Source: Nitrosomonas sp.
GTDB taxonomy: Bacteria > Pseudomonadota > Gammaproteobacteria > Burkholderiales > Nitrosomonadaceae
DNA: 34,165 bases
Assembly: GCA_020446045.1 (NCBI GenBank)
Contig: JAGRFM010000081.1
Coordinates: 1-34,165 of the forward strand
Direction: 5' to 3'
Made by a program: the position numbers and the translations under genes. Below are positions 57 to 17,150 of the stretch, piece after piece; position 1 is the first letter of the stretch, and each line of letters begins with the position of its first letter. The notes under the pieces were generated by a model. It saw nothing but the letters and a program-made list of their open reading frames with translations. It had not been told where the DNA came from and searched no databases.

Positions 57-1274
57 ATGAGCAGTTTACAAAAGATACGCGTTTTACTGTTGGATGATGA
101 TCAATTCATATTGGATTTTGTCAGTGAGTTGCTGAGAGACCTGGGTGTGGATGAAGTGTTGGTTGCTCAGGATGGTATGGCGGGATTAAACGTATTATCC
201 GAACAGGTGGCAGACATCGATCTGCTGATCTGTGATATCGAAATGCCTGAGATGGATGGTATTGAATTTCTGCGTAACATAGCCAGCCAGAATTATTGTG
301 GAAATATTGCGTTGTTTTCAGGAATCGACGCAGATCTGCTCAGAGCTGCGGAGCGATTTGCCAAAGTCAGTGGTTTAAGAGTGCTGGGAACTTTGTCGAA
401 ACCGGTTTCCCTGGGCGCATTGGCAACTATACTTGAACGCGTATCGCATCCCGAACTTCTTTCAGCAGTTAAAAAACCTATACAACCACCTGACGATAGC
501 AAGTTTAATCTTGAAGATGTTCGCAAAGCAATTGTTGATGAAGCATTTGAAGTTTATTATCAACCCAAGGTAACAGTATCGGATGGTAAAATCGTCGGGT
601 TTGAAAGTCTTGCCCGATGGATTCATCCCCATTATGGATTTATTCCGCCGGATCAATTTATACCGCTTATCGAACAAACACCGGGTTTGATTGATGAGTT
701 TACTCAGCTGATTTTGAAAAAATCGGTTAAACAGCTTGCACAGTGGCTGGATCAGGGGCTGGATCTGAAAGCGGCGGTAAATATATCGATGGAAAATTTA
801 AACCGCTATGATTTACCCGAAATTTTTGCCAAGACTGCTCAAGCGTTTAATGTGCCGCTCAAGAAAATCATGCTGGAAATTACAGAGAGTAAACTGAGTA
901 AAGATTATGCATTAAGCCTGGATATTCTGACGCGCTTTAGAATAAAAGGTTTCGGTTTGTCTATCGATGATTTTGGGACCGGTTACGCAACGATGGAAAC
1001 CCTGAACAATTTGCCCTTTACCGAATTGAAGATTGATCGCATGTTTGTCAACGGTGCAGTCAATGATGCTTCGGCACGTGCCATAGTGGAATCGAGTGTA
1101 CGTTTGGCGAAAGAATTCGGGTTGAATATCGTCGCTGAAGGCGTCGAGACCGAGGAAGAACTGGAGCTTATAGGGAAATTGGGTTGTATTGAAGCGCAAG
1201 GCTATTATTTTTCCAAACCGGTGCCAGCCGATGAATTTGTTCAATTAAAATCTTTACATGTTTCGAATCGATAG
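57..1274 (+). CDS. REC-EAL response regulator, c-di-GMP phosphodiesterase
   Basis: A cytoplasmic two-domain protein of 405 residues. The REC domain (about 7-130) has the acidic cluster D13-D15, the phospho-acceptor D60 in CDIEMPEMDG and K115 in LSKP. The EAL domain (about 152-400) has ESLAR (183-187, in place of EALAR), N242, E274 in LEITES, DDFGTGY (304-310), K325 in LKID and E361/E364 in AEGVE. All metal- and substrate-binding positions therefore look intact, and hydrolysis of c-di-GMP to pGpG is expected. The architecture and length match the RocR/VieA-like class of phosphorylation-controlled phosphodiesterases. No HTH is present, so the output is enzymatic. No good Shine-Dalgarno precedes the ATG. 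The cognate kinase is not in view and may lie to the left. Confidence 0.9.
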   Translation: MSSLQKIRVLLLDDDQFILDFVSELLRDLGVDEVLVAQDGMAGLNVLSEQVADIDLLICDIEMPEMDGIEFLRNIASQNYCGNIALFSGIDADLLRAAERFAKVSGLRVLGTLSKPVSLGALATILERVSHPELLSAVKKPIQPPDDSKFNLEDVRKAIVDEAFEVYYQPKVTVSDGKIVGFESLARWIHPHYGFIPPDQFIPLIEQTPGLIDEFTQLILKKSVKQLAQWLDQGLDLKAAVNISMENLNRYDLPEIFAKTAQAFNVPLKKIMLEITESKLSKDYALSLDILTRFRIKGFGLSIDDFGTGYATMETLNNLPFTELKIDRMFVNGAVNDASARAIVESSVRLAKEFGLNIVAEGVETEEELELIGKLGCIEAQGYYFSKPVPADEFVQLKSLHVSNR

Positions 1275-1390: not shown

Positions 1391-4300
1391 ATGACTATGT
1401 TGGATTCAACATCCCCCAATCGTTCTATCGTACCTTCACCTGATTTTCAATTTAATACGACTGTTTCCGATCTGTATCGGCGTGATGGTTTGTTGAGATT
1501 GGATCAGGAATTTTTGGATTTTTTGAAAGAGGGTGATGCGCCGGTTTATGAAAAACTGCTAGTTGCACGCGAACAACCGGATGCTTTGCAGCCCAAGGAT
1601 GAATCGGCTTTATTAATCGCTGTTGCGCCTTGGCTGGATGATTTTATTGCCAAACTTTTCAATATTGAGTCAGAGATTAAAGTGTTGGCGGCGAAACATC
1701 ATGAACTGGCGCCGCTTTATTTCTGTAAACGGCAGTTCGTGCAGCGCCGCGCCAAAGGCAAAGTAAAACCTGACGAGCTTGCAACGATCAATGGCCTGAC
1801 TTTGGAAAAAGAACTGGAGGCTGAATTCGGGGAACCGTTTTCCGAATTGGTGTTTGCGACGCAGGTTGAGAAATGGATGCAAGACGAAGCTGCGAATGAA
1901 GCGCAGTTAAAAAAGGCGCTGCATTATGCAGCATGGGCCTTGAGAACACCTGAGGGGCAAGCGCATACGCATGACGGCATTTTGTTTAAATCCCCGGCCA
2001 AGCTGAATTTTCAGCACTTGCTCGAACTGGATACCGACGAATCAAAAGGATATCCGTTGCACAAGTTGCATCATTTGAGGCAGCGTGAAGGTTTTGCGTT
2101 GACCGATGAGGGCACCGATTTGGTTGGGGCGCTTGATGAGGCGAATTACTGTATCTGGTGCCACGAGCAGGGTAAGGATTCCTGTTCAAAAGGCCTGAAA
2201 GACAAGCCCAAGTCTGCGGACGAACCTGCGCCGTTTAAAAACAGCGAGCTTGGTGCGTTGTTGGCCGGGTGCCCGCTGGAAGAACGTATTTCGGAATTTC
2301 ATAAACTGAAGACACAAGGAGTGGCCGTTGGCAGTCTGGCGATGATCGTGCTGGATAACCCGATGTGTGCGGGAACCGGGCACCGGATTTGTAACGATTG
2401 TATGAAGTCCTGTATTTATCAAAAGCAGGATCCGGTCGATATCCCGCAGGCAGAAACACGCACCTTGAAAGACGTGTTGGCATTGCCCTGGGGTTATGAA
2501 ATTTACAGCTTGCTGACACGCTGGAATCCATTGAATCTGAAACGTCCCGTACCTAAACCGTTGACAGGTAAAAAAGTGTTGGTTGTCGGTATGGGGCCGG
2601 CGGGTTATACGCTGGCGCATCATTTAATGAACGAAGGTCATACCGTGGTCGGTATCGACGGTCTCAAGATTGAACCGCTGTCGGAAAATCTTTCGGGTGT
2701 CACGATGAAAGGTGAACGTGTGCCTTTTCATGCCGTTTATGATTCCGGAGAATTGGAAGAAAATCTGGATGAACGCATGCCGGGTGGGTTTGGTGGTGTA
2801 GCCGAATATGGTATTACCGTACGCTGGAATAAGAATTTTCTGAAACTGATCCGGCTATTGTTGGAACGCCGGGATCAGTTTGCGCTGTTTGGCGGAATTC
2901 GTTTTGGTGGTACGCTGACAACGGACGATGCATTTGCCATGGGGTTTGACCATGTTGCATTGGCAGCTGGCGCCGGTAAGCCGACGGTGTTAAATCTGCC
3001 GAACGGTTTGGCGCGCGGCGTGCGCGCTGCATCCGATTTTTTGATGGCGCTGCAATTGACGGGTGCCGCACAACGCGATTCGATTGCCAACATGCAGTTG
3101 CGGTTACCGGTTATCGTCATTGGTGGTGGTCTGACTGCCATTGATACGGCGACCGAAGCTTTGGCCTATTATCCGGTGCAGGTCGAGAAATTCCTGCAAC
3201 GTTTTGAACTGCTTGCAGCCGTTCAGGGTGAAGCGGCGATTCGTGCGATCTGGGATGCGGAAGAAACCGAAATAGCTGACGAATTTCTAAAACATGCGCG
3301 TGCGATTCGCGCCGAGCGTGAAGCGGCTGAACGTGAAGGACGTGAAGCGGATATTTTGTCGTTGCTGCAATCCTGGGGTGGAGCCACCATTGCGTATCGC
3401 AAGCGCCTGATTGACAGCCCTTCTTATACATTGAATCATGAAGAAGTCGAAAAAGCGCTCGAGGAAGGCATCTGGTTTGCCGAGGGACTGACACCGACCC
3501 GCGTTAACGTCAATCAATGGGATCATGTGCAATCGGTACAGTTTACCGTGCAAAAGCGCGACGATGAGGGCAACTGGAATAAAACCGGAGAAGTTGAGTT
3601 GTCTGCGCATGCATTGCTTGTTGCAGCCGGAACGCAGCCCAACACCGTGCTGGCGCGGGAAGACGGTGATAAATATAAACTCGATGGACGCTATTTTGCA
3701 GCCTGCGATGAATCGGGCAATCCGGTTAAACCGGCATACGGCAATCCTAAGTCCGGAACGGCTTCGGTTTTGCTCAGCTATTATAAAGATGCGCAGGACG
3801 GTCGTTTCATCAGTTTCTTTGGCGACTTACATCCTTCTTTCTCAGGGAATGTTGTGAAGGCCATGTCGAGTGCGAAACTTGGCTATCCCGTCGTCGATAA
3901 TGTGCTTGGCAAGGTTGCGCCTCGTTCTGATAAATCAACCGAACAGTTTTTTGCATCGTTTAACCAACAATGGCGCCCCATTGTCCACAAGGTTGAACGG
4001 CTGACGCCGAACATTGTTGAGGTGGTGGTCCATGCACCGATGGCTGCGGAACGTTTTCATCCTGGGCAGTTTTATCGCTTCCAGAATTATGCGGCGCTTG
4101 CACCGGTTAAGAACGATACACGGCTGGCGATGGAAGGAATAGCCTTGACTGGCGCTTCGGTAGATATTTCACAAGGATTGGTATCGCTGATTGCACTTGA
4201 AATGGGCGGTTCGGCGGATTTGTGCACCATGCTGAAACCGGGTGAGCCGGTTATTTTAATGGGGCCGACGGGCACACCAACTGAAATCGAATCCGGTGAG

Positions 4301-4930
4301 ACCGTGATACTCGTCGGCGGTGGTCTGGGTAACGCGGTGCTATTCTCTATCGGCGCTGCAGCGCGTGAAGCAGGTTGCAAGGTGCTTTATTTTGCCGGTT
4401 ACAAGAAACTGGTTGACCGATACAAAATGACCGAAATCGAGGCGGCGGCTGACACAGTCGTATGGTGTTGTGACGAAGCGCCCGGTTTCGAGCCAGGTCG
4501 CCCTGGTGATAAACAGTTTGTCGGCAATATTGTTGAGGCTATGATCGCTTATGGCAATGGTCAACTGGGTGAGCAATCGGTGCCGATGAATGAAGCGGAC
4601 CGTATCATCGCCATCGGGTCGGATCGCATGATGGCCGCCGTGGGAGCGGCGCGGCATAACCAGTTGAAGCCTTATCTCAAAGCAGCGCATTTCGCGATCG
4701 GGTCGATCAATTCACCGATGCAGTGCATGATGAAAGAGATCTGCGCGCAGTGTCTCCAGCCGCATAAAGATCCGCAAACGGGTGAAGTGACCTACGTCTT
4801 TTCATGCTTTAACCAGGATCAGCCGCTGGATCTCGTTGACTTCACCGGTCTGGCGTCACGTCTGCGGCAAAACAGTGTGCAGGAAAAATTAACCAGCCGC
4901 TGGATTGATCGTTGCCTCGATCGAGCATGA
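1391..4930 (+). CDS. Fused GltD/NfnB-like and PyrK/NfnA-like Fe-S flavin oxidoreductase
   Basis: A 1179-residue cytoplasmic redox protein. Residues 1-240 are not recognised. A Fer4_20-like Fe-S domain follows, with cysteines at 254, 257, 265, 334, 337 and 341 (for example ICNDCMKSC). Next comes a GltD-like two-dinucleotide fold: FAD motif VVGMGPAG near 400 and NAD(P) motif VIGGGLTAID near 576. From about 860 there is a ferredoxin-reductase/PyrK-like part with HPGQFYRFQN for flavin, LVGGGLG for NAD and a four-cysteine set at 1112, 1118, 1121 and 1139 that suits a 2Fe-2S cluster. This order resembles NfnB followed by NfnA of the electron-bifurcating ferredoxin:NADP transhydrogenase, joined in one chain. 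Bifurcation is inference; a simpler NAD(P)H:acceptor oxidoreductase is possible. A second in-frame ATG lies at 1397 and no clear ribosome site is seen. Confidence 0.8.
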   Translation: MTMLDSTSPNRSIVPSPDFQFNTTVSDLYRRDGLLRLDQEFLDFLKEGDAPVYEKLLVAREQPDALQPKDESALLIAVAPWLDDFIAKLFNIESEIKVLAAKHHELAPLYFCKRQFVQRRAKGKVKPDELATINGLTLEKELEAEFGEPFSELVFATQVEKWMQDEAANEAQLKKALHYAAWALRTPEGQAHTHDGILFKSPAKLNFQHLLELDTDESKGYPLHKLHHLRQREGFALTDEGTDLVGALDEANYCIWCHEQGKDSCSKGLKDKPKSADEPAPFKNSELGALLAGCPLEERISEFHKLKTQGVAVGSLAMIVLDNPMCAGTGHRICNDCMKSCIYQKQDPVDIPQAETRTLKDVLALPWGYEIYSLLTRWNPLNLKRPVPKPLTGKKVLVVGMGPAGYTLAHHLMNEGHTVVGIDGLKIEPLSENLSGVTMKGERVPFHAVYDSGELEENLDERMPGGFGGVAEYGITVRWNKNFLKLIRLLLERRDQFALFGGIRFGGTLTTDDAFAMGFDHVALAAGAGKPTVLNLPNGLARGVRAASDFLMALQLTGAAQRDSIANMQLRLPVIVIGGGLTAIDTATEALAYYPVQVEKFLQRFELLAAVQGEAAIRAIWDAEETEIADEFLKHARAIRAEREAAEREGREADILSLLQSWGGATIAYRKRLIDSPSYTLNHEEVEKALEEGIWFAEGLTPTRVNVNQWDHVQSVQFTVQKRDDEGNWNKTGEVELSAHALLVAAGTQPNTVLAREDGDKYKLDGRYFAACDESGNPVKPAYGNPKSGTASVLLSYYKDAQDGRFISFFGDLHPSFSGNVVKAMSSAKLGYPVVDNVLGKVAPRSDKSTEQFFASFNQQWRPIVHKVERLTPNIVEVVVHAPMAAERFHPGQFYRFQNYAALAPVKNDTRLAMEGIALTGASVDISQGLVSLIALEMGGSADLCTMLKPGEPVILMGPTGTPTEIESGETVILVGGGLGNAVLFSIGAAAREAGCKVLYFAGYKKLVDRYKMTEIEAAADTVVWCCDEAPGFEPGRPGDKQFVGNIVEAMIAYGNGQLGEQSVPMNEADRIIAIGSDRMMAAVGAARHNQLKPYLKAAHFAIGSINSPMQCMMKEICAQCLQPHKDPQTGEVTYVFSCFNQDQPLDLVDFTGLASRLRQNSVQEKLTSRWIDRCLDRA

Positions 4931-5947: not shown

Positions 5948-6127
5948 TTGCTGATATTCTTGAGTTTTAGGCGATTCAACGTTATCACTTTTGAAGAGGC
6001 TATTTCACTTTTTTGGTCGATCGGGCCAATAATTCGGCTTAATTACCTGATTTTGCAAGTTCCTCTTAAGAGTTTGATTAATAATGTTACATATTGTTTC
6101 TCCTGGTTGAATGGAGAAAGCATCTCA

Positions 6128-6145
6128 ATGAAATACTATCAATAA
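6128..6145 (+). other. Possible five-codon leader (MKYYQ) before the GGDEF-EAL gene
   Basis: GGAGAAAG (6113-6120) is a good ribosome site 7 bases before ATG AAA TAC TAT CAA TAA. The next gene's ATG lies 2 bases after this stop and has no ribosome site of its own, which suits translational coupling. It may equally be chance. Confidence 0.3.
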
Positions 6146-6147
6146 AA

Positions 6148-7842
6148 ATGACTTCATTTTTGCCATTTTCTGATGACTTATCAAAATATCAAGCGTTGAT
6201 AGATTTATTGCCTGTAGCTATTTTTATAAAAGATGCCGAAAGCAAAATATTGTTGATCAACAAAGCATGCGAATTGCAATGGGGATTAAGTTTAAAAAAA
6301 GTGTATGGGACTGATGCCAGCCAATTTTTCCCACCTGAACAAATGGAACAATTCCTCGCCAAGGATCAAGAAGTGTTTATAAATGCAAAACAAGTGGATT
6401 TTGAGGAAATAATTTGGAATTCGACACTTGAGCAAAATCGGTTTGTTCATACATTTAAAAAACCCTTGTATGACAAATCCGGAAAACCATTGTATTTGGT
6501 TGGTATGTCCGTCGATATTACCGAACGCAAGAAAGCGGAGCAGCGCATCACAGAAATGGCGACCCATGATTTGTTAACAGGTTTGCCAAATAGAGCTTTA
6601 TTGAAAGATCGTATCGAACAAGCGCTCGAACATTGTCGTCGTAACCAAAAGCAGGTGGCAGTGTTGTTCATAGATCTGGATCATTTCAAGGTTATCAATG
6701 ACTCACTTGGTCATGATGTGGGTGATTTGTTATTAATGGAGGTCGCGACAAGATTTGTGTCCGTAGTACGTAGTGAAGACACGGTAGTACGCCAAGGCGG
6801 CGATGAGTTTATTATACTGCTGTCCAATCTTGACAATGAATTGGGTGCAGAGGAAGTGGCGTATAAGATAATAGATGTTCTAATTCTGCCTTTTCTAATT
6901 GATGGCAAGGAACTCAACATAAGTTGCAGTATCGGTATTTCTTTGTTTCCAAGCGATGGGGAAAATATTTGGACGTTACTGAAGAATAGTGATATTGCCA
7001 TGTATCATGCCAAGAAGAGCGGCCGTAACAACTTCAAGTTTTTTACACCTGAAATGAACAGGCAGGCAAAAGAACGGCATATCATGGAAGTTGGTTTGCG
7101 TAATGCGCTAAAGCGCAACGAATTGCAGCTTTATTATCAGCCCATTGTTAACGTAGACGGCTCTAAGATGAAAAGTATGGAGGTATTGTTACGCTGGCGG
7201 CATCCCAAAAAAGGACTTGTCTGTCCAAACAAATTCATTCGGGTGGCTGAGGAGACTGGAATGATCGTGCCGATCGGAGAATGGGTGCTACGGCAATCGT
7301 GTTTGCAGATAAAAGCATGGTATCAAAAAGGCTATGAAGTTCCGAGGTTGGCAATCAATCTCTCTGCCATGCAGTTCCGGCAGAAAAACCTGGTTGCATG
7401 CATTGCTGGCATTCTGGATGAAATTGGTTTGGGCGGACATTGTTTAACGCTGGAAATCACCGAAAGCGAATTGATAGAGAACGTTGAGGAAACGATCAGG
7501 ACATTGAAGCAGTTAAGCGCATTGGGAATCGAGATTTCCGTAGATGACTTTGGCACTGGTTACTCTAATCTGAGTTTTCTGAAGCGCTACCAGATCAACA
7601 CGTTAAAAATAGACCATTCATTTGTGCGTGACATTACAACCGATCTAGACGATACTGCAATTATTCATGCTATCATCGCTATGGCGCATAACTTGAATAT
7701 ATACGTTATAGCCGAAGGTGTGGAAACTAATAAGCAGCTTGCTTTCCTGGTCTCGCATGGATGTTCTAGCTTCCAGGGTTTTTATTTCAGCAAGCCACTG
7801 CTGGCTGCGGAAATTGAAAGTAGAATGTTATTGGCAAATTAA
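6148..7842 (+). CDS. PAS-GGDEF-EAL c-di-GMP signalling protein
   Basis: A 564-residue soluble protein from ATG 6148. A PAS sensor domain (about 10-130) ends in the typical DITERKKAE linker. The GGDEF domain has GGDEF intact at 217-221 and an RxxD product-inhibition site (RSED, 208-211) five residues upstream, so diguanylate cyclase activity is possible. The EAL domain starts with EVLLRW (345-350, in place of EALLRW). It keeps NLS, LEITESE, VDDFGTGYS (DDFG from 466), LKID and IAEGVET, so phosphodiesterase activity is possible too. No transmembrane segment is seen, and the PAS domain probably senses a cytoplasmic ligand or redox state. Alternative upstream TTG starts exist (6094) but lack support. 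The gene follows mobile-element debris. Confidence 0.9.
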   Translation: MTSFLPFSDDLSKYQALIDLLPVAIFIKDAESKILLINKACELQWGLSLKKVYGTDASQFFPPEQMEQFLAKDQEVFINAKQVDFEEIIWNSTLEQNRFVHTFKKPLYDKSGKPLYLVGMSVDITERKKAEQRITEMATHDLLTGLPNRALLKDRIEQALEHCRRNQKQVAVLFIDLDHFKVINDSLGHDVGDLLLMEVATRFVSVVRSEDTVVRQGGDEFIILLSNLDNELGAEEVAYKIIDVLILPFLIDGKELNISCSIGISLFPSDGENIWTLLKNSDIAMYHAKKSGRNNFKFFTPEMNRQAKERHIMEVGLRNALKRNELQLYYQPIVNVDGSKMKSMEVLLRWRHPKKGLVCPNKFIRVAEETGMIVPIGEWVLRQSCLQIKAWYQKGYEVPRLAINLSAMQFRQKNLVACIAGILDEIGLGGHCLTLEITESELIENVEETIRTLKQLSALGIEISVDDFGTGYSNLSFLKRYQINTLKIDHSFVRDITTDLDDTAIIHAIIAMAHNLNIYVIAEGVETNKQLAFLVSHGCSSFQGFYFSKPLLAAEIESRMLLAN

Positions 7843-8790: not shown

Positions 8791-9441
8791 CTAACCGACA
8801 GGGATTAGTGGTTTTAGGGTTCTTTTCGTAAAATAAAACAGAATCAATGCGCTGGCAACGGCGGCAAAAAAGCACCATACCGACACAAACGTTGCTGTAT
8901 AGACAAAAAATGCCACGCAAAAGCCAATGAAAATAACAAAACCCGTCAGGTGCAGGTTCCTGAAGCTTGAAATGAGAAATGGCATGCAGGTGGCCAGCAG
9001 GTAGAGCAGTATGACGATCGGATACGCATGAATATCATGGTCGTAATAAATATTGTGATCGATGATTTCTACTGTGACTGGTTTGTGTATCAGGCTGAAA
9101 GCAGTGTATGCTGCTAATGCAAAACCGGCAATGCCTATTAATCCAATGATTTTCTTTCTGAGAATTTCAGTTTCGGCAAAATAAAGCGCCAGGGGTACGT
9201 ACGGCGGCCAAATAACGCCGACAAAAATAGCGTACAGATTACTCAGCCAGAATTGCATCGCCAGATTGTTTTGCAATAGGGCAATCCATAAAAATCCTTC
9301 GGTAGTTTGTTGTGCGGCAAAAATGAAAGGAATCAATGCAACAGGGTAATCTTTTTTTTCTTTGACTTTTGTAATGATGACGCCACCAATCACCAAAAGG
9401 CTGCCGCCTACGATAAAGCTTGCTTCTGCTGAAAAACACAT
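8791..9441 (-). CDS. DUF6629-family integral membrane protein
   Basis: 216 residues with about seven hydrophobic helices. It begins MCFSAEASFIVGG and has AAQQTTEGFLWI near residue 45, both hallmarks of a small family of bacterial membrane proteins annotated as DUF6629. The function is unknown. It is transcribed divergently from the dodecin gene. Helices cover nearly the whole length and only short charged loops (KVKEKKDYP, the YYDHDIHA stretch) leave the membrane. No signal peptide cleavage site is apparent. The protein may bind a small ligand or sense a membrane signal, but nothing in the sequence proves that. Confidence 0.75.
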   Translation of the reverse strand: MCFSAEASFIVGGSLLVIGGVIITKVKEKKDYPVALIPFIFAAQQTTEGFLWIALLQNNLAMQFWLSNLYAIFVGVIWPPYVPLALYFAETEILRKKIIGLIGIAGFALAAYTAFSLIHKPVTVEIIDHNIYYDHDIHAYPIVILLYLLATCMPFLISSFRNLHLTGFVIFIGFCVAFFVYTATFVSVWCFFAAVASALILFYFTKRTLKPLIPVG

Positions 9442-9576
9442 GGTGATTGGAATTCTCGATCCTGAACCTGAAAAATAGAATCCGAAATTCTAACATACTC
9501 TTTGTTTCTGAGAATAATGTGAGGCTACGTGCATAGCGTGATTGGTCAAACCAGTTTAATGGTTGCACAATTTAGG

Positions 9577-9582
9577 TATACT
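9577..9582 (+). promoter_or_regulatory. Possible -10 box for the dodecin gene
   Basis: TATACT lies 32 bases before the dodecin start, with a weak TTTAAT 16 bases upstream of it. This is a plausible sigma-70 promoter, judged by eye only. Confidence 0.3.
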
Positions 9583-9614
9583 GTAGTTTCAATATTTTGA
9601 AGGAGGGAATGAAA

Positions 9615-9824
9615 ATGTCGGAACATATTTATAAAATTCTGGAGCTTACCGGTTCATCAACATCCAGTATGCAAGGTGCGATTGAAAATGCGATTACAAG
9701 AGCATCAAAAACGGTGCAAGACATGCGCTGGTTTGAAGTGATTGAAACACGTGGCCATATTGAGGAAGGAAAAATCAAGCATTGGCAAGTAACGATTAAG
9801 GTTGGTTTTACGCTGCGGGATTAG
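9615..9824 (+). CDS. Dodecin family flavin-binding protein
   Basis: 69 residues, the normal dodecin length. Dodecins form hollow dodecamers that store or buffer flavins in the cytoplasm. The sequence [13 protein letters not shown] leads the fold. W39 in RWFEV and Q58 in HWQVT match the flavin-stacking Trp and hydrogen-bonding Gln, with the same 19-residue spacing as the archaeal pair W36/Q55. The start at 9615 is chosen because AGGAGGG (9601-9607) lies 7 bases upstream; an in-frame ATG at 9609 and TTG at 9597 are too close to or before that site. A weak hairpin (9840-9855) follows the stop. Confidence 0.9.
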
Positions 9825-9839
9825 CGGTTTTGATCAACA

Positions 9840-9855
9840 TCAGCCGTTTGGCTGG
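9840..9855 (+). terminator. Weak hairpin after the dodecin gene
   Basis: TCAGCC-gttt-GGCTGG forms a 6-bp stem (one G-T pair) 15 bases after the dodecin stop and is followed by ATTATTG. Without a proper T run it is at best a weak terminator. Confidence 0.3.
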
Positions 9856-9901
9856 ATTATTGAAGAATAAACAATCATATAAGGGGTATCTCTAAAAACG
9901 A

Positions 9902-10321
9902 ATGCTCTGGATAAAATCTCTACATATCATTTTCATGGTGACCTGGTTCGCCGGCCTGTTTTACCTGCCACGTCTGTTTGTCTATCACGCCATGTGCGAA
10001 GATGCGCCGGGCAAGGAACGCTTCAAAATCATGGAGCGCAAGCTGTATTACGGCATTATGACGCCGGGCGCCGTTTTGACCGTCGTATTTGGTGTCTGGT
10101 TGTGGCTCGGATACGGGTTTGCGGGTGACTGGCTTTATGCCAAACTGGCATTGGTATTGATATTGGTTGTTTATCATTATTATTGCGGTAAGTATGTGAA
10201 AGCGTTCAAATATGATAATAATCAACATGGTCATGTGTTTTATCGCTTTTTCAACGAATTCCCGGTTTTGATTTTATTTGCGGTGGTATTTCTGGTCGTT
10301 ATCAAGCCTGATTTGTTTTAG
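9902..10321 (+). CDS. hemJ: HemJ-type protoporphyrinogen IX oxidase
   Basis: A 139-residue membrane protein with four hydrophobic helices (UPF0093/TIGR00701 family). HemJ oxidises protoporphyrinogen IX to protoporphyrin IX in haem synthesis and is the usual form in many proteobacteria lacking HemG/HemY. The N-terminal LHIIFMVTWFAGLFYLPRLFVYH and the later WLYAKLALV block are characteristic. H8 and K81 occupy the positions of the conserved His/Lys pair associated with haem binding. The gene stands upstream of the ATPase operon on the same strand, 79 bases away, but a functional link is not implied. The start has no strong ribosome site; GGGGTATC is the nearest purine-rich run. Confidence 0.85.
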   Translation: MLWIKSLHIIFMVTWFAGLFYLPRLFVYHAMCEDAPGKERFKIMERKLYYGIMTPGAVLTVVFGVWLWLGYGFAGDWLYAKLALVLILVVYHYYCGKYVKAFKYDNNQHGHVFYRFFNEFPVLILFAVVFLVVIKPDLF

Positions 10322-10397
10322 CGGATTTCTGGTAGAAAAAGGCCGAGTGGAAAGCCCGGTTGAATTCTAATTAGGGGCGTACAACGTGAACGCATGA

Positions 10398-11803
<1,406 letters not shown>

Positions 11804-11804
<1 letters not shown>

Positions 11805-12235
11805 TGTTAATGGTCATGGATTCCCAGGAAAACCAGGCTTGTATGCGGTTGCAGGTCATGTTGCCCACTGAGATTCTGGTGGATGAAAATGTCATTAAAG
11901 TGATTGCCGAGGCGGAGAACGGTTCATTTTGTTTGTTGCCACGGCATATCGATTTTGTTGCTGCACTGGTGCCGGGTATTCTCAGTTTTTATACGCTGGA
12001 TGGCGAAGAACATTTTGCGGCTGTGGATGAAGGTATTCTGGTTAAATGCGGTCGTGAGATTTCAGTGTCCACATTGAACGGTGTTCGTGGAACACACCTG
12101 GGGCAATTGCAAACATTGATCGGTGAGCGTTTTCTGGTACTGGACGAGCATGAACGCAAGGCGAGAACTGCGCTGGCACGGCTGGAAGCCGGCACGTTAC
12201 GTGGCTTTAAGGAATTGCAGGACAAAAGGCAATGA
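11804..12235 (+). CDS. atpC: N-ATPase epsilon subunit
   Basis: 143 residues from the ATG that overlaps the atpD stop (TAATG), which favours translational coupling. In-frame ATGs at 11810 and 11816 are alternatives, and GAAGG at 11796-11800 would suit 11810 best. The beta-sandwich part (MRLQVMLPTEILVDE..., LLPRHIDFVAALVPGIL, FAAVDEGIL) is the family signature, and the C-terminal helical part is rich in charged residues (DEHERKARTALARLEAG). Epsilon links the gamma stalk to the c ring and can inhibit ATP hydrolysis. Gene order atpD-atpC at the start of the operon is diagnostic for N-ATPases. Confidence 0.9.
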
Positions 12236-12262
12236 CGAAATTGCCCGGAGGGCGTCTCTAAA

Positions 12263-12553
12263 ATGAAATACAAACCGGCAGAAAAGCTGGGCGAACAGAT
12301 CGGTTCGCGGGCCAGACGCAAACAAAAGGCGCGGGAACGGGGCGAACGCACAATCTGGTTTGGTTTGGGCATGTTTGGCCTGGTTGGTTGGTCGATAGCG
12401 ATTCCGACTATATTAGGTATTGTTTTGGGGATTTGGCTCGATAACCAGTGGCCCGGCAAGCATTCCTGGACATTGACATTTTTGTTTATTGGCGTTGCGT
12501 TGGGTTGCTTGAACGCCTGGTACTGGGTGAAGCAGGAGAGCAGGCGGCGGTGA
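12263..12553 (+). CDS. atpQ: N-ATPase AtpQ (AtpI-like) membrane subunit
   Basis: 96 residues: a basic, charged N-terminus (about 1-30, RARRKQKARERGER) and two transmembrane helices (about 31-56 and 66-88). This is the AtpI-like 'ATPase gene 1' family (TIGR02230) that occupies the third position in N-ATPase operons. It probably helps c-ring assembly, as AtpI does in ordinary F-ATPases. A ribosome site GGAGG precedes the ATG by 10 bases. It is separated from atpC by 27 bases. Confidence 0.85.
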   Translation: MKYKPAEKLGEQIGSRARRKQKARERGERTIWFGLGMFGLVGWSIAIPTILGIVLGIWLDNQWPGKHSWTLTFLFIGVALGCLNAWYWVKQESRRR

Positions 12554-12588
12554 GGTTTAGTAACCATGGCTGAAAGGAGAAAGCGACT

Positions 12589-12888
12589 ATGCACGATTTG
12601 TTATTTTTAGCCCTGATGTTTGCGGGAGGCATGATTCTGGGCGGGCTCTATTTTTCCGGGCTGTGGTATACGGTGCAACGTATTCAGCAGGAAAAACATC
12701 CTGCTTTCTGGATAATCGCCAGTTTGGTGTTTCGCATGACGTTGTTGCTGATTGCTTTCTATTTCGTTTTAAGCTATGGCAGTTGGGCGCATTTGTTGGC
12801 CGTTCTGGCCGGTTTTATTGTCTTGCGCATGATTACGACACGAAAAATGCGGCAATTGATCCAAACTGCGGCGCATGTTCAGGAGTAA
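12589..12888 (+). CDS. atpR: N-ATPase AtpR membrane subunit
   Basis: 99 residues with three transmembrane helices. AtpR is found only in N-ATPase operons. Its membrane arginines were proposed to pair with the c-subunit carboxylates, and R49 (SLVFRMTLL) lies within the second helix here. AAGGAG lies about 10 bases before ATG. The stop is 5 bases before the atpB start, indicating tight coupling. The role in assembly is from published comparative genomics; nothing more can be read from the sequence. Confidence 0.85.
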   Translation: MHDLLFLALMFAGGMILGGLYFSGLWYTVQRIQQEKHPAFWIIASLVFRMTLLLIAFYFVLSYGSWAHLLAVLAGFIVLRMITTRKMRQLIQTAAHVQE

Positions 12889-12893
12889 CCGAT

Positions 12894-13571
12894 ATGACAA
12901 TCAATCCGGATGAAATGGTTTTCTGGCAATGGGGAATTCTGTCGATCAATGCGACAATCGTTTTCACCTGGCTGGTCATGGCGGTATTGACCCTGATTTC
13001 ATGGCTGGTAACGCGACGTCTGACCAGTGGGCCGGACATGTCGCGCTGGCAGAATCTACTTGAAGTGCTGGTAACCGGTATGCGCGATCAGATTAAGGAA
13101 ATCAGTCACCAGCAGCCAGGCAAGTATCTGCCGTTTGTCGGAACCCTGTTTTTATTTATTGCAATGGCTAATTTGCTGAATGTGGTTCCGGGTTATATGG
13201 CGCCGACTGGGTCGCTGTCAACGACGACCGCCTTGGCTATTTGTGTTTTTGTTGCGGTTCCGTTGTATGGAGTTATGTCAGAAGGGCCGGTAAGTTATCT
13301 GTCCCACTACATCAGGCCGACCGTGTTGATGCTCCCTTTTAATATCATCGGCGAAATTTCGCGTACCATAGCGCTTGCCGTTCGTTTATACGGCAATATC
13401 ATGAGCGGTACGGTTATTGTGGCAATCCTGTTGAGCCTGACACCGTACTTTTTCCCGGTAATCATGCAATTGCTGGGTTTGTTGACAGGTATGATACAGG
13501 CTTATATTTTTGCTATTCTGGCAATGGTTTATATCGCATCGGCAACCTCAACACAGGCCGGTCATCAATAA
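12894..13571 (+). CDS. atpB: N-ATPase a subunit
   Basis: 225 residues, about five or six transmembrane helices. It forms the ion half-channels against the c ring. The block EISRTIALAVRLYGNIMSG contains R164, the essential stator arginine (equivalent to E. coli aR210). The C-terminal helix GMIQAYIFAILAMVYIASA is typical. The start at 12894 is chosen because AGGAG (12881-12885) is 8 bases upstream; the same frame runs open much further upstream through atpR but without family sequence. The protein is shorter than housekeeping a subunits (about 260-290), as usual for N-ATPases. Confidence 0.92.
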   Translation: MTINPDEMVFWQWGILSINATIVFTWLVMAVLTLISWLVTRRLTSGPDMSRWQNLLEVLVTGMRDQIKEISHQQPGKYLPFVGTLFLFIAMANLLNVVPGYMAPTGSLSTTTALAICVFVAVPLYGVMSEGPVSYLSHYIRPTVLMLPFNIIGEISRTIALAVRLYGNIMSGTVIVAILLSLTPYFFPVIMQLLGLLTGMIQAYIFAILAMVYIASATSTQAGHQ

Positions 13572-13609
13572 ATTCAGTATTGCGAATATTACGGAATAAG
13601 GAATCGGAT

Positions 13610-13888
13610 ATGGATAGTATTTCACTCATTGGTATGGTCTCCATCATTATGGCAGGTTTGACCATCGCAATTGGTTCGCTTGGTCCTGCATTTGGCGAGG
13701 CGCGCGCTGTTGCACAAGCACTGAGCGCTATTGCCCAGCAACCGGACGAGGCAACGACGATTACGAGAACCCTGTTTGTCGGGCTTGCAATGATTGAGTC
13801 TACCGCGATTTATTGTTTTGTGGTGACGATGATTTTGATCTTTGCCAATCCTTTCTGGGATTATGTGACAAATACTGCCGGAGGGTAG
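13610..13888 (+). CDS. atpE: N-ATPase c subunit with Na+-binding residues
   Basis: 92 residues, a two-helix hairpin with polar loop AQQPDE. Helix 1 has E30 in PAFGEARA, and helix 2 has E63-S64-T65 and Y68 in IESTAIY. These correspond to Q32, E65, S66, T67 and Y70 of the Ilyobacter tartaricus Na+ site, so the ring is predicted to carry Na+ rather than H+. The double-glutamate pattern is typical of N-ATPases. The start at 13610 follows AAGGA at a good distance; an in-frame TTG-type start at 13580 would add ten residues and is unlikely. Confidence 0.93.
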   Translation: MDSISLIGMVSIIMAGLTIAIGSLGPAFGEARAVAQALSAIAQQPDEATTITRTLFVGLAMIESTAIYCFVVTMILIFANPFWDYVTNTAGG

Positions 13889-13891
13889 TTC

Positions 13892-14710
13892 ATGGATATT
13901 GACTGGATAACGGTTTCAGCGCAAATCATCAATTTTCTGATCCTGGTCTGGTTATTGAAGCGTTTCCTGTATCAGCCAATTATCAGTGCCATGGATCAGC
14001 GTGAGCAACGTATCGCTGAACAGATCGGTGAGGCGGAGATACGTGAACGAAAGGCCGATGAAGCGGCGGCGCAATATCATGAAAAAGCCAGAATGTTGGA
14101 GTTGCAGCGCGACGAAATAATGGCGGAAACGCATCGGCATGCGGTACAACAGAAAAAACAACTGCTGGATGAGGCGCGTGAAGAAGTGGATGAGGTGCGC
14201 GAACATTGGCATCGGCAGGTACAGCTCGAGAAAGCGGAATTTCTTGATGACTTGCGGTGCCAGATGTCAAACGTACTACAAAAGATTGCGCGAAATGCCC
14301 TGACGGATTTGGCTGATGAAGTGCTTGAAGAAAGAATCATTCAAGCATTTCTGAATCAATTGACTGCCCTTGATGATGAATCCCGTCAACGGCTGCTGCA
14401 TGCTGCCGATACATCGGAGCCGGTTCGAGTTATCAGCACATTCACATTGGATACATCAACACGCAGGCATATTACACAAATGATTCATACCCATCTGAAG
14501 GAAGGCATGGTTGTGGAATATGATGAATCGCCGGAATGGTTGTGCGGCGTGGTGCTGAATGTCGGTGAACATCAGTTGGGCTGGAATCTTGCGAAGTATC
14601 TGGAGCAATTGAATGAACAGTTTGAACAAGTTCTGGTAACGACGGCGACTGTTTCACCGTCAACTTCTGCCAAGAAGCTATTTTCGAATGATTTGCACAC
14701 AAAAGGATAA
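13892..14710 (+). CDS. atpF: N-ATPase b subunit, extended (delta-like tail)
   Basis: 272 residues, much longer than the usual 156. One N-terminal membrane helix (IINFLILVWLLKRFLY) is followed by a long charged coiled coil (about 30-140). After about residue 165 comes a globular part with VISTFTLDTSTRRHITQMI and VVEYDESPEWLCGVVLNVG, resembling the C-terminal part of delta subunits. The operon has no atpH (delta), so this tail probably supplies the peripheral-stalk contact with alpha. It lies 3 bases after atpE. The resemblance to delta is by eye and is inference. Confidence 0.88.
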   Translation: MDIDWITVSAQIINFLILVWLLKRFLYQPIISAMDQREQRIAEQIGEAEIRERKADEAAAQYHEKARMLELQRDEIMAETHRHAVQQKKQLLDEAREEVDEVREHWHRQVQLEKAEFLDDLRCQMSNVLQKIARNALTDLADEVLEERIIQAFLNQLTALDDESRQRLLHAADTSEPVRVISTFTLDTSTRRHITQMIHTHLKEGMVVEYDESPEWLCGVVLNVGEHQLGWNLAKYLEQLNEQFEQVLVTTATVSPSTSAKKLFSNDLHTKG

Positions 14711-14714
14711 ATGA

Positions 14715-16232
14715 TTGTTATCGCATTTGCTCGGAGAAACATTTTCGACGTTTAACAAAATCATCGAGCAGCATACGCTGCATTTGCACTTGCAGGAAAC
14801 CGGCAGTGTCATCCATGTAGGGGGTGGAATTGCACGCATCAAAGGTTTACCCGGAATCAAGTCCGAGGAGCTGGTGCGTTTTCCGGGCGGTGTGATGGGG
14901 GTGGCGGTTAATCTCGAACCCCATGAAACGGGCATCATTTTGCTCGGGGACAGTGAGCAATTGACGGCAGGTGAATCGGTTCATGCAACAGGCCGGGAAG
15001 CAGACGTGCCTGTGGGTGATGCATTGCTGGGCCGCGTCATCGATGCGACAGGCCGTGTTCTTGATCGCGGTAAACCGCTCAGTTTCAGCGAGCGATACCC
15101 TGTTGAACGGAACGCACCCGCCATTATAGCGCGTTCACCGGTTACCGTACCGTTGGAGACAGGTATTAAAATTATCGATGCCCTGGTTCCTATTGGACGT
15201 GGGCAGCGCGAATTGATTGTAGGCGACCGGCAGACCGGTAAAACCGCAGTGGCGGTCGATACCATGATCAACCAGCGTGACAAGGATGTTATCTGTATTT
15301 ACTGCGCAATCGGTCAGCGCGGTACCGCTGTAGCGCGTGTCATCAGTACGTTACGCCATCATCAAGCCCTGGACAATACGATTGTCGTCGTGGCTTCCGA
15401 CGATGATCCGCCGGGTTTGCGTTATATCACGCCTTACGCAGCCACATCAATGGGTGAATATTTTGCGGAAAAAGGAAAAGATGTCCTTATCGTGTATGAC
15501 GATTTGACACGGCATGCGCGTGCGTACCGTGAATTGTCGCTATTGCTAAGGCGTCCGCCCGGTCGGGAGGCCTACCCAGGCGATATTTTTTATCTGCATG
15601 CGCGATTGCTGGAGCGGTCAACGCACTGGCATGAGCGCTATGGCGGTGGTTCCTTGACAGCGTTGCCGATCATAGAAACCCAGGCGCAGGATATATCAGC
15701 GTATATTCCGACCAATTTGATTTCCATCACGGATGGGCAAATCTATCTTTCACCGGTACTGTTTCATAAAGGAATTTTACCGGCTATTGATATTGGTAAA
15801 TCGATTTCACGCGTGGGCGGTAAAACCCAGTATCCGGCATTCAGAAATGTTGCGGGTGATTTGCGTTTGTCGTATGCGCAGTTTGAGGAGCTTGAAACCT
15901 TCGCGCGTTTTGCGACCCGTCTGGATGAGGAAACGCGCGCGACAATCGAGCATGGAAAGCGGGTTCGTGAAGTATTGAAACAGGCAGAGCATCAACCGCT
16001 GCGGAGCAGTCAGCAAATGGCGGTATTAAAGGCAGTGAATGCAGGATTGTTTGACCGGCTTCCACTGGACAGTATTGCGGATGTCGAAGCGCTGATTCAA
16101 AAGCAGATACGAATTGATTTGCCGGAATTATGCGAAGCTATGGAGGCGGGAAAAAGATTGACTGAAGAACAGTGGGAACAGGTGCTTGCGCTGGCGCGCA
16201 ATGCGGTATCGACATTTGATCACATACAGTAA
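14715..16232 (+). CDS. atpA: N-ATPase alpha subunit (TTG start)
   Basis: 505 residues. Non-catalytic nucleotide-binding subunit: P-loop GDRQTGKT at 170-177, and SISRVGG with the arginine that reaches the catalytic site. The start is taken as TTG 14715 because AAGGA (14702-14706) lies 8 bases before it. The ATG at 14711 is in another frame and opens only a 14-codon frame. No other ATG in the true frame precedes the family homology ([16 protein letters not shown]). A rare start codon may lower alpha yield relative to its neighbours, or a base may differ from relatives. Confidence 0.93.
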
Positions 16233-16241
16233 CCATAGAAA

Positions 16242-17150
16242 ATGGAATCCCAGGAACAGTTGGCCAGGCAGCTTGAAAGTCTAGAAGATTTGCGGGCTAT
16301 CGTTAAGACTATGAAAGCGTTGTCAGCGGCCAGTGTCAGGCAATATGAGCAGGCGGTCAAAGCATTAACGGGTTATTATCGAACGGTTGAACGCGGTTTG
16401 CATGTGGTTTTGAAAAAAACCGGTTCATTGCCGGTTGGAATCCATCATTCGCATTCGCGGGAACCTTTGAGACTGGGCAGTATCGTTTTTGGGTCGGATC
16501 ACGGGTTGTGCGGGCGGTTTAACGAAGACATTATTGCGTACACCCTGGAACGCATGAAATCGACACCTGCCGACCCGGAGAATCATGTGTTGCTTGCCGT
16601 TGGTGCGCGTGTGGCTGCCGGTCTGGAACATGAAGGTCAGATGGTCGAAGATATTTTTCTGGTTCCGGGTACGGCACTGCAAATTACAAGAACCGTACAG
16701 CAGATTCTGCTCAAAATAGACGAATGGCAGGTGCAAAGCGGTGTGCACTATGTTTATCTGTTTTATAACCGCCATTCGGGCAGCAAAACCTACCGGCCAA
16801 CCGGTTTTGAATTATTGCCTGTCAACTTGCACCGTTTTCACCGGCTGGAGGAAGAAGTGTGGCCTTCCCGCAGTTTGCCCACGTTCAGTATGGATCATGA
16901 TCAATTGTTTACGCGTCTGTTGCGGCAATACCTTTTTGTCACGTTGTTCCGTGCCTGTGCTGAATCGCAGGCCAGCGAACATACCAGCCGATTGTCGGCA
17001 ATGCAATCGGCGCAGCGCAATCTGGATGATCGCCTGGAAGAAGTGACATTGGCTTTCCGCCGTGCTCGTCAGGGTGTGATTACCGCCGAATTGCTCGATC
17101 TGGCCGCTGGTTATGAGGCGATTACAGGCAGCAAGGGCAGGATGGGGTAG
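16242..17150 (+). CDS. atpG: N-ATPase gamma subunit
   Basis: 302 residues. The rotary shaft has its two long terminal helices: the N-terminal LEDLRAIVKTMKALSAASV and the C-terminal SAMQSAQRNLDDRLEEVTL. The central Rossmann-like part includes FGSDHGLCGRFNEDI, the counterpart of the SDRGLCGGFN block. It is the last gene of the N-ATPase set, 9 bases after atpA. A second out-of-strand frame in the same place has no family features. The ribosome site is weak (no clear GGAG). Confidence 0.92.
   Translation: MESQEQLARQLESLEDLRAIVKTMKALSAASVRQYEQAVKALTGYYRTVERGLHVVLKKTGSLPVGIHHSHSREPLRLGSIVFGSDHGLCGRFNEDIIAYTLERMKSTPADPENHVLLAVGARVAAGLEHEGQMVEDIFLVPGTALQITRTVQQILLKIDEWQVQSGVHYVYLFYNRHSGSKTYRPTGFELLPVNLHRFHRLEEEVWPSRSLPTFSMDHDQLFTRLLRQYLFVTLFRACAESQASEHTSRLSAMQSAQRNLDDRLEEVTLAFRRARQGVITAELLDLAAGYEAITGSKGRMG

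Follow-up and report, generated by a model that had tools for sequence, protein, structure and literature searches.

A fused Nfn-like protein of Nitrosomonas as a possible NADPH:ferredoxin oxidoreductase

A siroheme sulfite reductase unaccompanied by CysJ is found in many bacteria, and its electron feed is often only assumed. The window analysed here, a stretch of 34,165 nucleotides from a Nitrosomonas sp. contig (JAGRFM010000081.1), encodes a protein in which both halves of an Nfn-like electron-transfer system are joined in one chain, which raises the question of what such a protein does in an ammonia oxidiser. Our preferred answer, to which we give a probability of roughly 0.55, is that of an Nfn-type NADPH:ferredoxin oxidoreductase whose reduced ferredoxin would serve sulfite reductase among other enzymes. 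The architecture, fold, conserved ligand residues and gene clustering are established directly; cofactors, ferredoxin partner, direction and client are inferred.

Pfam, NCBIfam and PDB sequence searches, together with the fold, place an NfnB/GltD-like unit before an NfnA/PyrK-like one (Table 1; inner domain borders are approximate and were set by us), which bears out the earlier note's description of a one-chain Nfn-like system in this order. A chance open reading frame was rejected, homologues being found throughout. Structure prediction and superposition on NfnAB, as that note had proposed, gave an AlphaFold model (pLDDT 87, pTM 0.88) to which both Nfn subunits matched among solved structures. 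Target-normalised Foldseek TM scores ranged from 0.75 to 0.79 for NfnL chains (5vj7_A, 5jca_L, 5jfc_L, 4ylf_B) and from 0.78 to 0.85 for NfnS chains (4ylf_A 0.82), at 18-24% identity in the alignments. The two folds by which an Nfn is recognised, an NfnB fold with FAD and NADP domains and an NfnA fold with a putative second FAD, are thus both predicted by the model. A helical insert of about 65 residues (about 595-660), judged from sequence and model, is carried by the NfnB-like unit.

Table 1. Features of the fused gene and its upstream neighbour in the window.
Feature	Position	Strand	Basis and remarks
Response regulator with EAL domain, directly upstream of the fused gene	57..1274	+	NCBIfam; locus of relative G006
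Fused Nfn-like oxidoreductase	1391..4930	+	ATG start, 1179 aa, no internal stop; ORF, NCBIfam, fold
Helical N-terminal domain, conserved, residues 1-245	1391..2125	+	AF2, Pfam, Foldseek, 36-row alignment
Cys254/257/265/294/334/337/341 and Glu355, predicted ligands of two [4Fe-4S] clusters as in NfnB, residues 254-355	2150..2455	+	Invariant in 60 rows; weak Fer4_20 match; second half aligned to 5jca_L, 5vj7_A
GltD/NfnB-like FAD and NADP unit, residues 390-850	2558..3940	+	PF07992; Foldseek 5vj7_A, 5jca_L, 4ylf_B
Arg478, candidate N5 arginine of the NfnB flavin	2822..2824	+	Aligns with residue 201 of Pyrococcus NfnL (5jca_L)
PyrK/NfnA-like FAD, NAD, [2Fe-2S] unit, residues 860-1179	3968..4927	+	Foldseek 5jca_S TMt 0.85; NCBIfam, PDB sequence search
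Cys1112-x5-Cys1118-x2-Cys1121-x17-Cys1139, predicted all-Cys [2Fe-2S] site	4724..4807	+	Sequence; invariant in 60 rows

The family is covered by the NCBIfam model NF005128 (PRK06567), which has the same architecture including the N-terminal domain: its position 3 aligns with residue 4 of a distant member (L118). The window protein scores 785.9 bits, below the curated cut-off of 1072, and aligns in three stretches, the best being residues 31-732 on model positions 14-693. The model fits a 1031-residue form with a degraded NAD motif (L195, 2271.9 bits). The NfnSL-type fusion models NF009414 and NF009415 gave 118.6 and 94 bits against curated values of 1103 and 1519. The name of NF005128 and the shared GltD-like fold would make the protein a glutamate synthase small subunit or polyprenylphenol hydroxylase, a reading that we consider very improbable: the NfnL chains of the PDB match better than GltD chains in Foldseek, and genome G000 has a separate frame of 509 codons on contig C202, probably the true GltD, that is 34% identical across residues 285-420. 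A second, NfnA-like flavin unit, whose lack would have spoken for such a family according to the earlier note, is present, and on this ground a plain GltD was rejected. The N-terminal extension, called unrecognised in that note, is so only in part, since NF005128 includes it; its roughly 245 residues matched nothing in Pfam at E values up to 1, and the fold, modelled alone by AF2 with a pLDDT of 87.8 (residues 1-246), has no match among solved structures (best Foldseek E 4.2).

The predicted cofactor sites were followed in a 60-row alignment, of which the window protein is one row, and in a wider, divergent one. Rather than the six N-terminal cysteines counted before, seven invariant cysteines and Glu355 appear as putative ligands. 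Their spacing (x2, x7, x28, then x2, x3) differs from that of the Nfn motifs RCx2Cx4Cx3CPV and GRVCPQExQCx3Cx13Gx2ER, as given in PMC6405883, so that these are not matched literally even though all eight residues are present; the third and fourth cysteines are separated by x28 where Nfn has x3. Arg478, whose counterpart in 5jca_L we take to be the N5 arginine of the bifurcating FAD, does not vary in the 60 rows and is found throughout the divergent alignment; Thr920, likewise constant in the former, is Ser in some rows of the latter. The Nfn motif DGTGMCGxCRx10CV, with its Asp ligand, is absent from the predicted [2Fe-2S] site; the fused protein has Cys where Nfn has Asp, in a region whose residues 1108-1117 are modelled with pLDDT below 50. 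The C-terminal four-Cys set, the possible loss of which in close homologues the earlier note had raised, is kept in 60/60 rows.

These sites bear on whether the protein is a true bifurcating Nfn, oxidising NADPH at the NfnB flavin and sending one electron through the NfnA unit to NAD+ and the other to ferredoxin, or running in reverse as in anaerobes. Both flavin units, the putative [4Fe-4S] ligands including Glu355, Arg478 and, in the 60 rows, the NAD motif GGGLG are kept, as this reading would predict. However, the motif is degraded in L194-L197, L030/L123, L029/L122, L131, L209 and L213 of the divergent alignment; L208 has an altered form and L200-L204 lack it, while the putative [4Fe-4S] ligands and Arg478 are kept. 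Moreover, according to PMC6405883 the [2Fe-2S] cluster of Nfn owes its high potential to the Asp ligand, in whose place Cys stands here. Both the all-Cys site and the fact that some branches have lost the NAD motif argue against a canonical Nfn reaction, and we regard bifurcation as rather unlikely. Slightly less likely still is its extension to ordinary aerobes, in which the family would split NADPH electrons to drive low-potential FdxA and would be the missing source for CysJ-less sulfite reductase and for ferredoxin-dependent steps such as heme A synthesis.

The fused form itself is not new, and it is not rare. Strong matches (E <1e-60) occur in 46/61 close-relative genomes, a few being contig-end fragments, and 3 further genomes among the 49 tallied have weak partial matches only. 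Hundreds of other genomes also carry the gene; it occurs in 85 of 300 genomes of the order and in 71 of 105 of a distant small-genome order (that of genome G123). The reading of the host as an ammonia oxidiser agrees with the gene's presence, at 9106-12108 in both cases, in G019 of the same genus and in the Nitrosomonas sp. record JAJFJK010000080.1. One homologue sits on an Acidithiobacillus caldus plasmid; used as a query against a phage collection, it found no match. The family already has an NCBI model, and B-before-A Nfn fusions were described in 2019 (PMC6405883). A literature search on PRK06567 found no papers. The family is widespread and uncharacterised, and its gene context is new as far as literature searches go.

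That context links the gene to sulfate assimilation. Both in Nitrosomonas and in the G123 order it stands after cysI-cysH-cysD-cysN. Of 36 genomes of the genus with the fused gene (G008 and G015 being counted by contig-end fragments of it), 25 have a NIR_SIR gene no more than 12 kb upstream in the same orientation; in the other 11 it is near but divergent (3), on another contig (6), far (1) or absent (1). In the window's genome the cys cluster is on contig C123, which ends 412 bases beyond cysN, and the window's contig begins with the EAL regulator whose homologue separates cysN from the fused gene in the single-contig relative G006. Genes for the pnt transhydrogenase, not present in the window, follow the fused gene in several Nitrosomonas loci. 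In the G123 order, cysN is just upstream on the same strand in 21/30 extracted loci, and the 21 carriers without a cysJ-like match include 14 in which cysI precedes the fused gene in the same orientation, whereas the 6 with such a match include none (counted by hand; Fisher p 0.006).

Such clustering, in one order found only where no cysJ-like match was present, might indicate a dedicated redox subunit that replaces CysJ by direct contact with sulfite reductase, without ferredoxin. However, no NIR_SIR match was found in 44 of the 71 carriers of the G123 order, so that sulfite reduction cannot be the sole job, and in other lineages the gene adjoins fdxA; we hold direct contact to be improbable. 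A plain replacement of CysJ was rejected because of the same 44 carriers and because cysJ above the curated cut-off coexists with the fused gene in four members of the genus (G001, G021, G035, G036); a fifth, G018, has a two-piece cysJ-like match. Eight genomes of the G123 order, four of them at least 90% complete, have NIR_SIR with neither cysJ nor the fused gene, indicating that other donors exist. Statistically, cysJ and the fused gene do not significantly avoid each other, with p 0.16 for the order and p 0.09 and 0.38 for the phylum sample.

Ferredoxin itself enters through fdxA, which precedes the fused gene by 15-131 bp on the same strand in 15/249 distinct loci and lies 3.6-4.0 kb upstream in another 9; 24 of the 26 distinct loci with an fdxA match have it upstream on the same strand. 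Genome-wide counts in the G123 order (FdxA in 67/71 genomes with the fused gene, 23/34 without) say little, because 71/74 well-completed genomes have FdxA. A divergently adjacent ctaA occurs in 36/249 distinct loci. In 14 rows, corresponding to 13 distinct places, there are parts of an AprA-like flavoprotein cluster (GntR, flavoprotein, 4Fe-4S protein, HEAT protein, fdxA, ABC transporter, fused gene), loosely arranged in L059 and in one case on the A. caldus plasmid. None of the three contexts (cys, fdxA, ctaA) was seen at 134/249 distinct loci, many with just 1.5 kb of flank. The AprA-like and ctaA neighbourhoods could mean that the protein is a donor mainly for that flavoprotein system or for heme A synthase CtaA, with the cys linkage secondary. 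Yet both neighbourhoods are confined to certain lineages, ctaA stands in divergent orientation and one order accounts for 27 of its 36 loci (L113 among them), which leaves this reading with little likelihood.

We return to the NADPH:ferredoxin oxidoreductase. NADPH would reduce the FAD of the NfnB unit, and electrons would then pass over the two predicted [4Fe-4S] clusters to a ferredoxin, for which FdxA is the most likely candidate. The NfnA unit, with its putative FAD and [2Fe-2S] site and, in most members, an NAD motif, may be a second electron port. A main client in Nitrosomonas would be CysI, the sulfite reductase whose gene belongs to the preceding cluster. The gene context suggests expenditure of NADPH to provide sulfite reductase and other clients with reduced ferredoxin. 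Of the two products of a new route suggested by the earlier note, NADPH or reduced ferredoxin, the gene context favours the latter, whereas NADPH would be consumed.

Its conserved proximity to cysI-cysH-cysD-cysN in some lineages, and to fdxA in others, marks the protein as a testable candidate donor. PMC6405883 names one acidobacterium as the only aerobe known with an Nfn homologue. If the present family is counted as Nfn-like, the range of aerobes would widen to ammonia oxidisers, Azospirillum and others.

In its proposed role the fused protein resembles CysJ, in that electrons would pass from NADPH to CysI. The architecture differs, CysJ, the flavoprotein subunit of NADPH sulfite reductase, being a diflavin FAD/FMN protein without iron-sulfur clusters. 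Among the NfnABC/StnABC structures, 9bov_A was the first-ranked Foldseek hit and 9n5u and 8oh5 also matched, with a sequence match in the GltD-like region; these are multisubunit complexes with other domains. A fused Nfn of 'pattern C', reported from Mobiluncus curtisii and some Proteobacteria, has the NfnA features at the C terminus, as here, but by its description (PMC6405883) exceeds the clostridial fusion (2,274 bp gene) by around 200 residues, whereas the window protein exceeds it by about 420. With the Nfn of Thermotoga (4YLF/4YRY) and Pyrococcus (5JCA/5JFC), and with 5VJ7, the window protein shares the two subunit folds, the putative [4Fe-4S] Cys and Glu residues, the aligned Arg and the FAD and NAD(P) motifs, and differs in its single B-A chain, its 245-residue N-terminal domain and its insert.

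The fused Nfn-like gene is a single open frame of 1179 codons (see table). In Pfam searches, Pyr_redox_2 matched residues 394-774 above cut-off and Fer4_20 matched residues 292-355 weakly, under cut-off. The top NCBIfam model was NF005128 (PRK06567, named 'putative bifunctional glutamate synthase subunit beta/2-polyprenylphenol hydroxylase'), at 785.9 bits and thus below its cut-off of 1072, and the NfnSL-type models NF009414 and NF009415 scored 118.6 and 94 bits. A PDB sequence search returned NfnL, NfnS, PyrK and GltD chains. An AlphaFold2 model (pLDDT 87.3, pTM 0.88) was obtained from a 60-row alignment of the window protein and 59 homologues at 60-83% identity to it. Against this model, Foldseek matched NfnL chains 5vj7_A, 5jca_L, 5jfc_L and 4ylf_B (TMt 0.75-0.79), NfnS chains 5jca_S, 4ylf_A and 4yry_C (TMt 0.78-0.85), and GltD chains (TMt 0.70-0.73). 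Since NfnL and NfnS chains both match, both Nfn units are present, NfnB before NfnA, as an earlier note had proposed. The N-terminal 246 residues, modelled alone, are largely helical (pLDDT 87.8), and a PDB fold search with them gave no match (best E 4.2).

Features discussed, with coordinates
Feature	Sequence	Position	Strand	Remarks
Response regulator-EAL, c-di-GMP protein	window	57-1274		flanks the fused gene
Fused Nfn-like oxidoreductase	window	1391-4930	+	
GGDEF-EAL, c-di-GMP protein	window	6094-7842		flanks the fused gene on the other side
HemJ-type protoporphyrinogen oxidase	window	9902-10321		137.8 bits, just under curated cut-off (138.05)
Alternate (N-type) F1F0 ATPase cluster	window	10401-17150		TIGR03166, 03306, 03321, 03324, 03323 above cut-offs; beta subunit TIGR03305 slightly under
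DUF934 protein	L033	4182-4712		between cysI and cysH
AprA-like flavoprotein cluster	L056	1609-13471		whole or partial here and in L064, L073, L280-L285, L303, L313, L217

Invariant in 60/60 rows of the alignment were Cys254, 257, 265, 294, 334, 337 and 341 with Glu355, Arg478, the GxGxxG and GGGLT motifs, GGGLG (976-980), and Cys1112, 1118, 1121 and 1139; the C-terminal four-Cys set named in the earlier note is thus retained in these homologues. In a wider, script-made alignment that takes in divergent and reduced forms, the seven Cys and Glu355 were kept in every row except L162, a fragment in which the first four ligand positions are absent, and Arg478 was present in all rows. There, the NAD motif was degraded in L194-L197, L030/L123, L029/L122, L131, L209 and L213, altered in L208, and absent from L200-L204, and the C-terminal Cys were absent or partial in L149, L158 and L204, all truncated by contig ends, as well as in L202, which has only 636 residues. 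The reduced forms (L194-L197, L200-L203) comprise proteins of about 1031-1076 residues without the NAD motif and shorter ones of 636-904 residues that retain the [4Fe-4S] ligands and Arg478.

The gene was found in 36/37 genomes of the window's genus, with a strong match in 46 of 61 close relatives (49 tallied, three of them weak only), in 85/300 genomes of its order, and in 17/398 of a phylum sample. It was also present in 71/105 genomes of a distant order of small genomes, that of G123 (70/105 with a second query), and in 71/76 of another order, that of G198. At least 565 places were confirmed; among the 80 best of these, record titles name Nitrosomonas, Nitrosovibrio, Gallionella, Nitrotoga, Azospirillum, Rhodospirillales, Bryobacterales and Planctomycetota, among others, although many are MAGs and possibly mislabelled. 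One occurrence is on a plasmid, Acidithiobacillus caldus pTcM1.

The usual order in Nitrosomonadaceae, with variation, is cysB (opposite strand), cysI, DUF934, cysH, cysD, cysN and the fused gene, often followed by pntAA-pntAB-pntB; pnt genes are absent from the window. Scoring by coordinates the best sulfite/nitrite reductase domain (NIR_SIR) place per genome, we found that it precedes the fused gene in the same orientation, at no more than 12 kb, in 25 of the 36 genus genomes that have this gene (G008 and G015 via a contig-end fragment of it), and that it is near but divergent in three, which have cysJI, on separate contigs in six, far in one, and absent from one. The window's genome is among the six: cysB to cysN lie on a contig of 16,491 bases (C123), ending 412 bases past the cysN match. 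The window contig opens with the EAL response regulator. In the single-contig relative G006, a homologue of it sits between cysN and the fused gene, but the approximately 2.5 kb, including another regulator, that separate this homologue from cysN there were not found in the two contig ends; for the window's organism, linkage to the cys genes is thus probable rather than established. A homologue of the EAL response regulator also lies between cys genes and the fused gene in locus L033. Among the 30 best-scoring loci from the 71 positive genomes of G123's order, cysN is immediately upstream on the same strand in 21, with alignment ends from 18 bp overlapping to 803 bp apart. CysH, CysD and CysN of L118, L109 and L121 share 33-45% identity with their Nitrosomonas counterparts. 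L066 (cysI) is an additional cys-linked case outside both groups, as is L109 unless it is a member of that order.

This context raises the possibility that the fused protein substitutes for CysJ, the flavoprotein subunit of NADPH sulfite reductase. In G123's order, NIR_SIR occurs in 42/105 genomes; with cysJ-like genes scored at E <1e-70 (13 genomes, none over the curated cut-off; G533, at E 8e-5, scored as none), 21 of the 42 have the fused gene only, six both, seven cysJ only and eight neither, showing no significant opposition (p 0.16). By hand count, cysI lies upstream on the same strand in 14/21 genomes with the fused gene only vs 0/6 with both (p 0.006, which is optimistic as the genomes are related), and in 6/6 of the latter the cysJ-like gene adjoins the NIR_SIR gene. 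In the phylum sample (same handles for cysJ as for the fused gene, as far as listed), cysJ exceeded the cut-off in 0/17 genomes with the fused gene vs 59/381 without (p 0.09; confounded by class), and at E 1e-100 in 2/17 vs 89/381 (p 0.38). Against substitution, four genus members carry both the fused gene and cysJ over cut-off, and 44 of the 71 positive genomes of G123's order have no NIR_SIR; a general ferredoxin reductase role would also account for the gene in such small genomes.

Two further contexts recur among 249 distinct loci (central 300 bases unshared; open frames called by a simple script), a biased sample of best-match loci and whole orders that we picked. In 15 of them the ferredoxin gene fdxA precedes the fused gene on the same strand at 15-131 bp, and in nine at 3.6-4.0 kb (distances between alignment ends); it is placed elsewhere in L082 and L123. 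In those nine, fdxA is part of a cluster that recurs, whole or partial, with parts of it present in 14 rows representing 13 distinct places (judged by length, L064 and L300 share a contig), in the order GntR, AprA-like flavoprotein (PRK08275), 4Fe-4S protein, HEAT protein, fdxA, ABC transporter with NMT1-type binding protein, GBBH-like_N protein and the fused gene; on pTcM1 (L217), where fdxA exceeds the NF045490 cut-off, the transporter genes are downstream on the opposite strand. In G123's order fdxA occurs in 67/71 positive genomes, yet it is near-universal there, so this adds little. The heme A synthase gene ctaA (PF02628 in three proteins scanned) is a divergent neighbour in 36 loci, 27 of them from G198's order; L081, L084, L087, L113 and L248-L276 have this arrangement. 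Mitochondrial Cox15 requires ferredoxin. At most 134 loci show none of the three contexts, an upper bound given that many flanks span only 1.5 kb, and 12 more were too short. We found no description of these contexts in the open-access literature searched.

Common to the sulfate, fdxA and ctaA contexts is ferredoxin or a likely ferredoxin user. Taken with the Nfn architecture, these contexts make NADPH:FdxA oxidoreduction the favoured function of the fused protein, which may or may not also boost one electron by bifurcation. The model is uncertain at the [2Fe-2S] site, where residues 1108-1117 have pLDDT under 50. According to section 8 of PMC6405883, this site in Nfn has an Asp ligand; in contrast, the corresponding position in the fused protein is a Cys, with x5 spacing.
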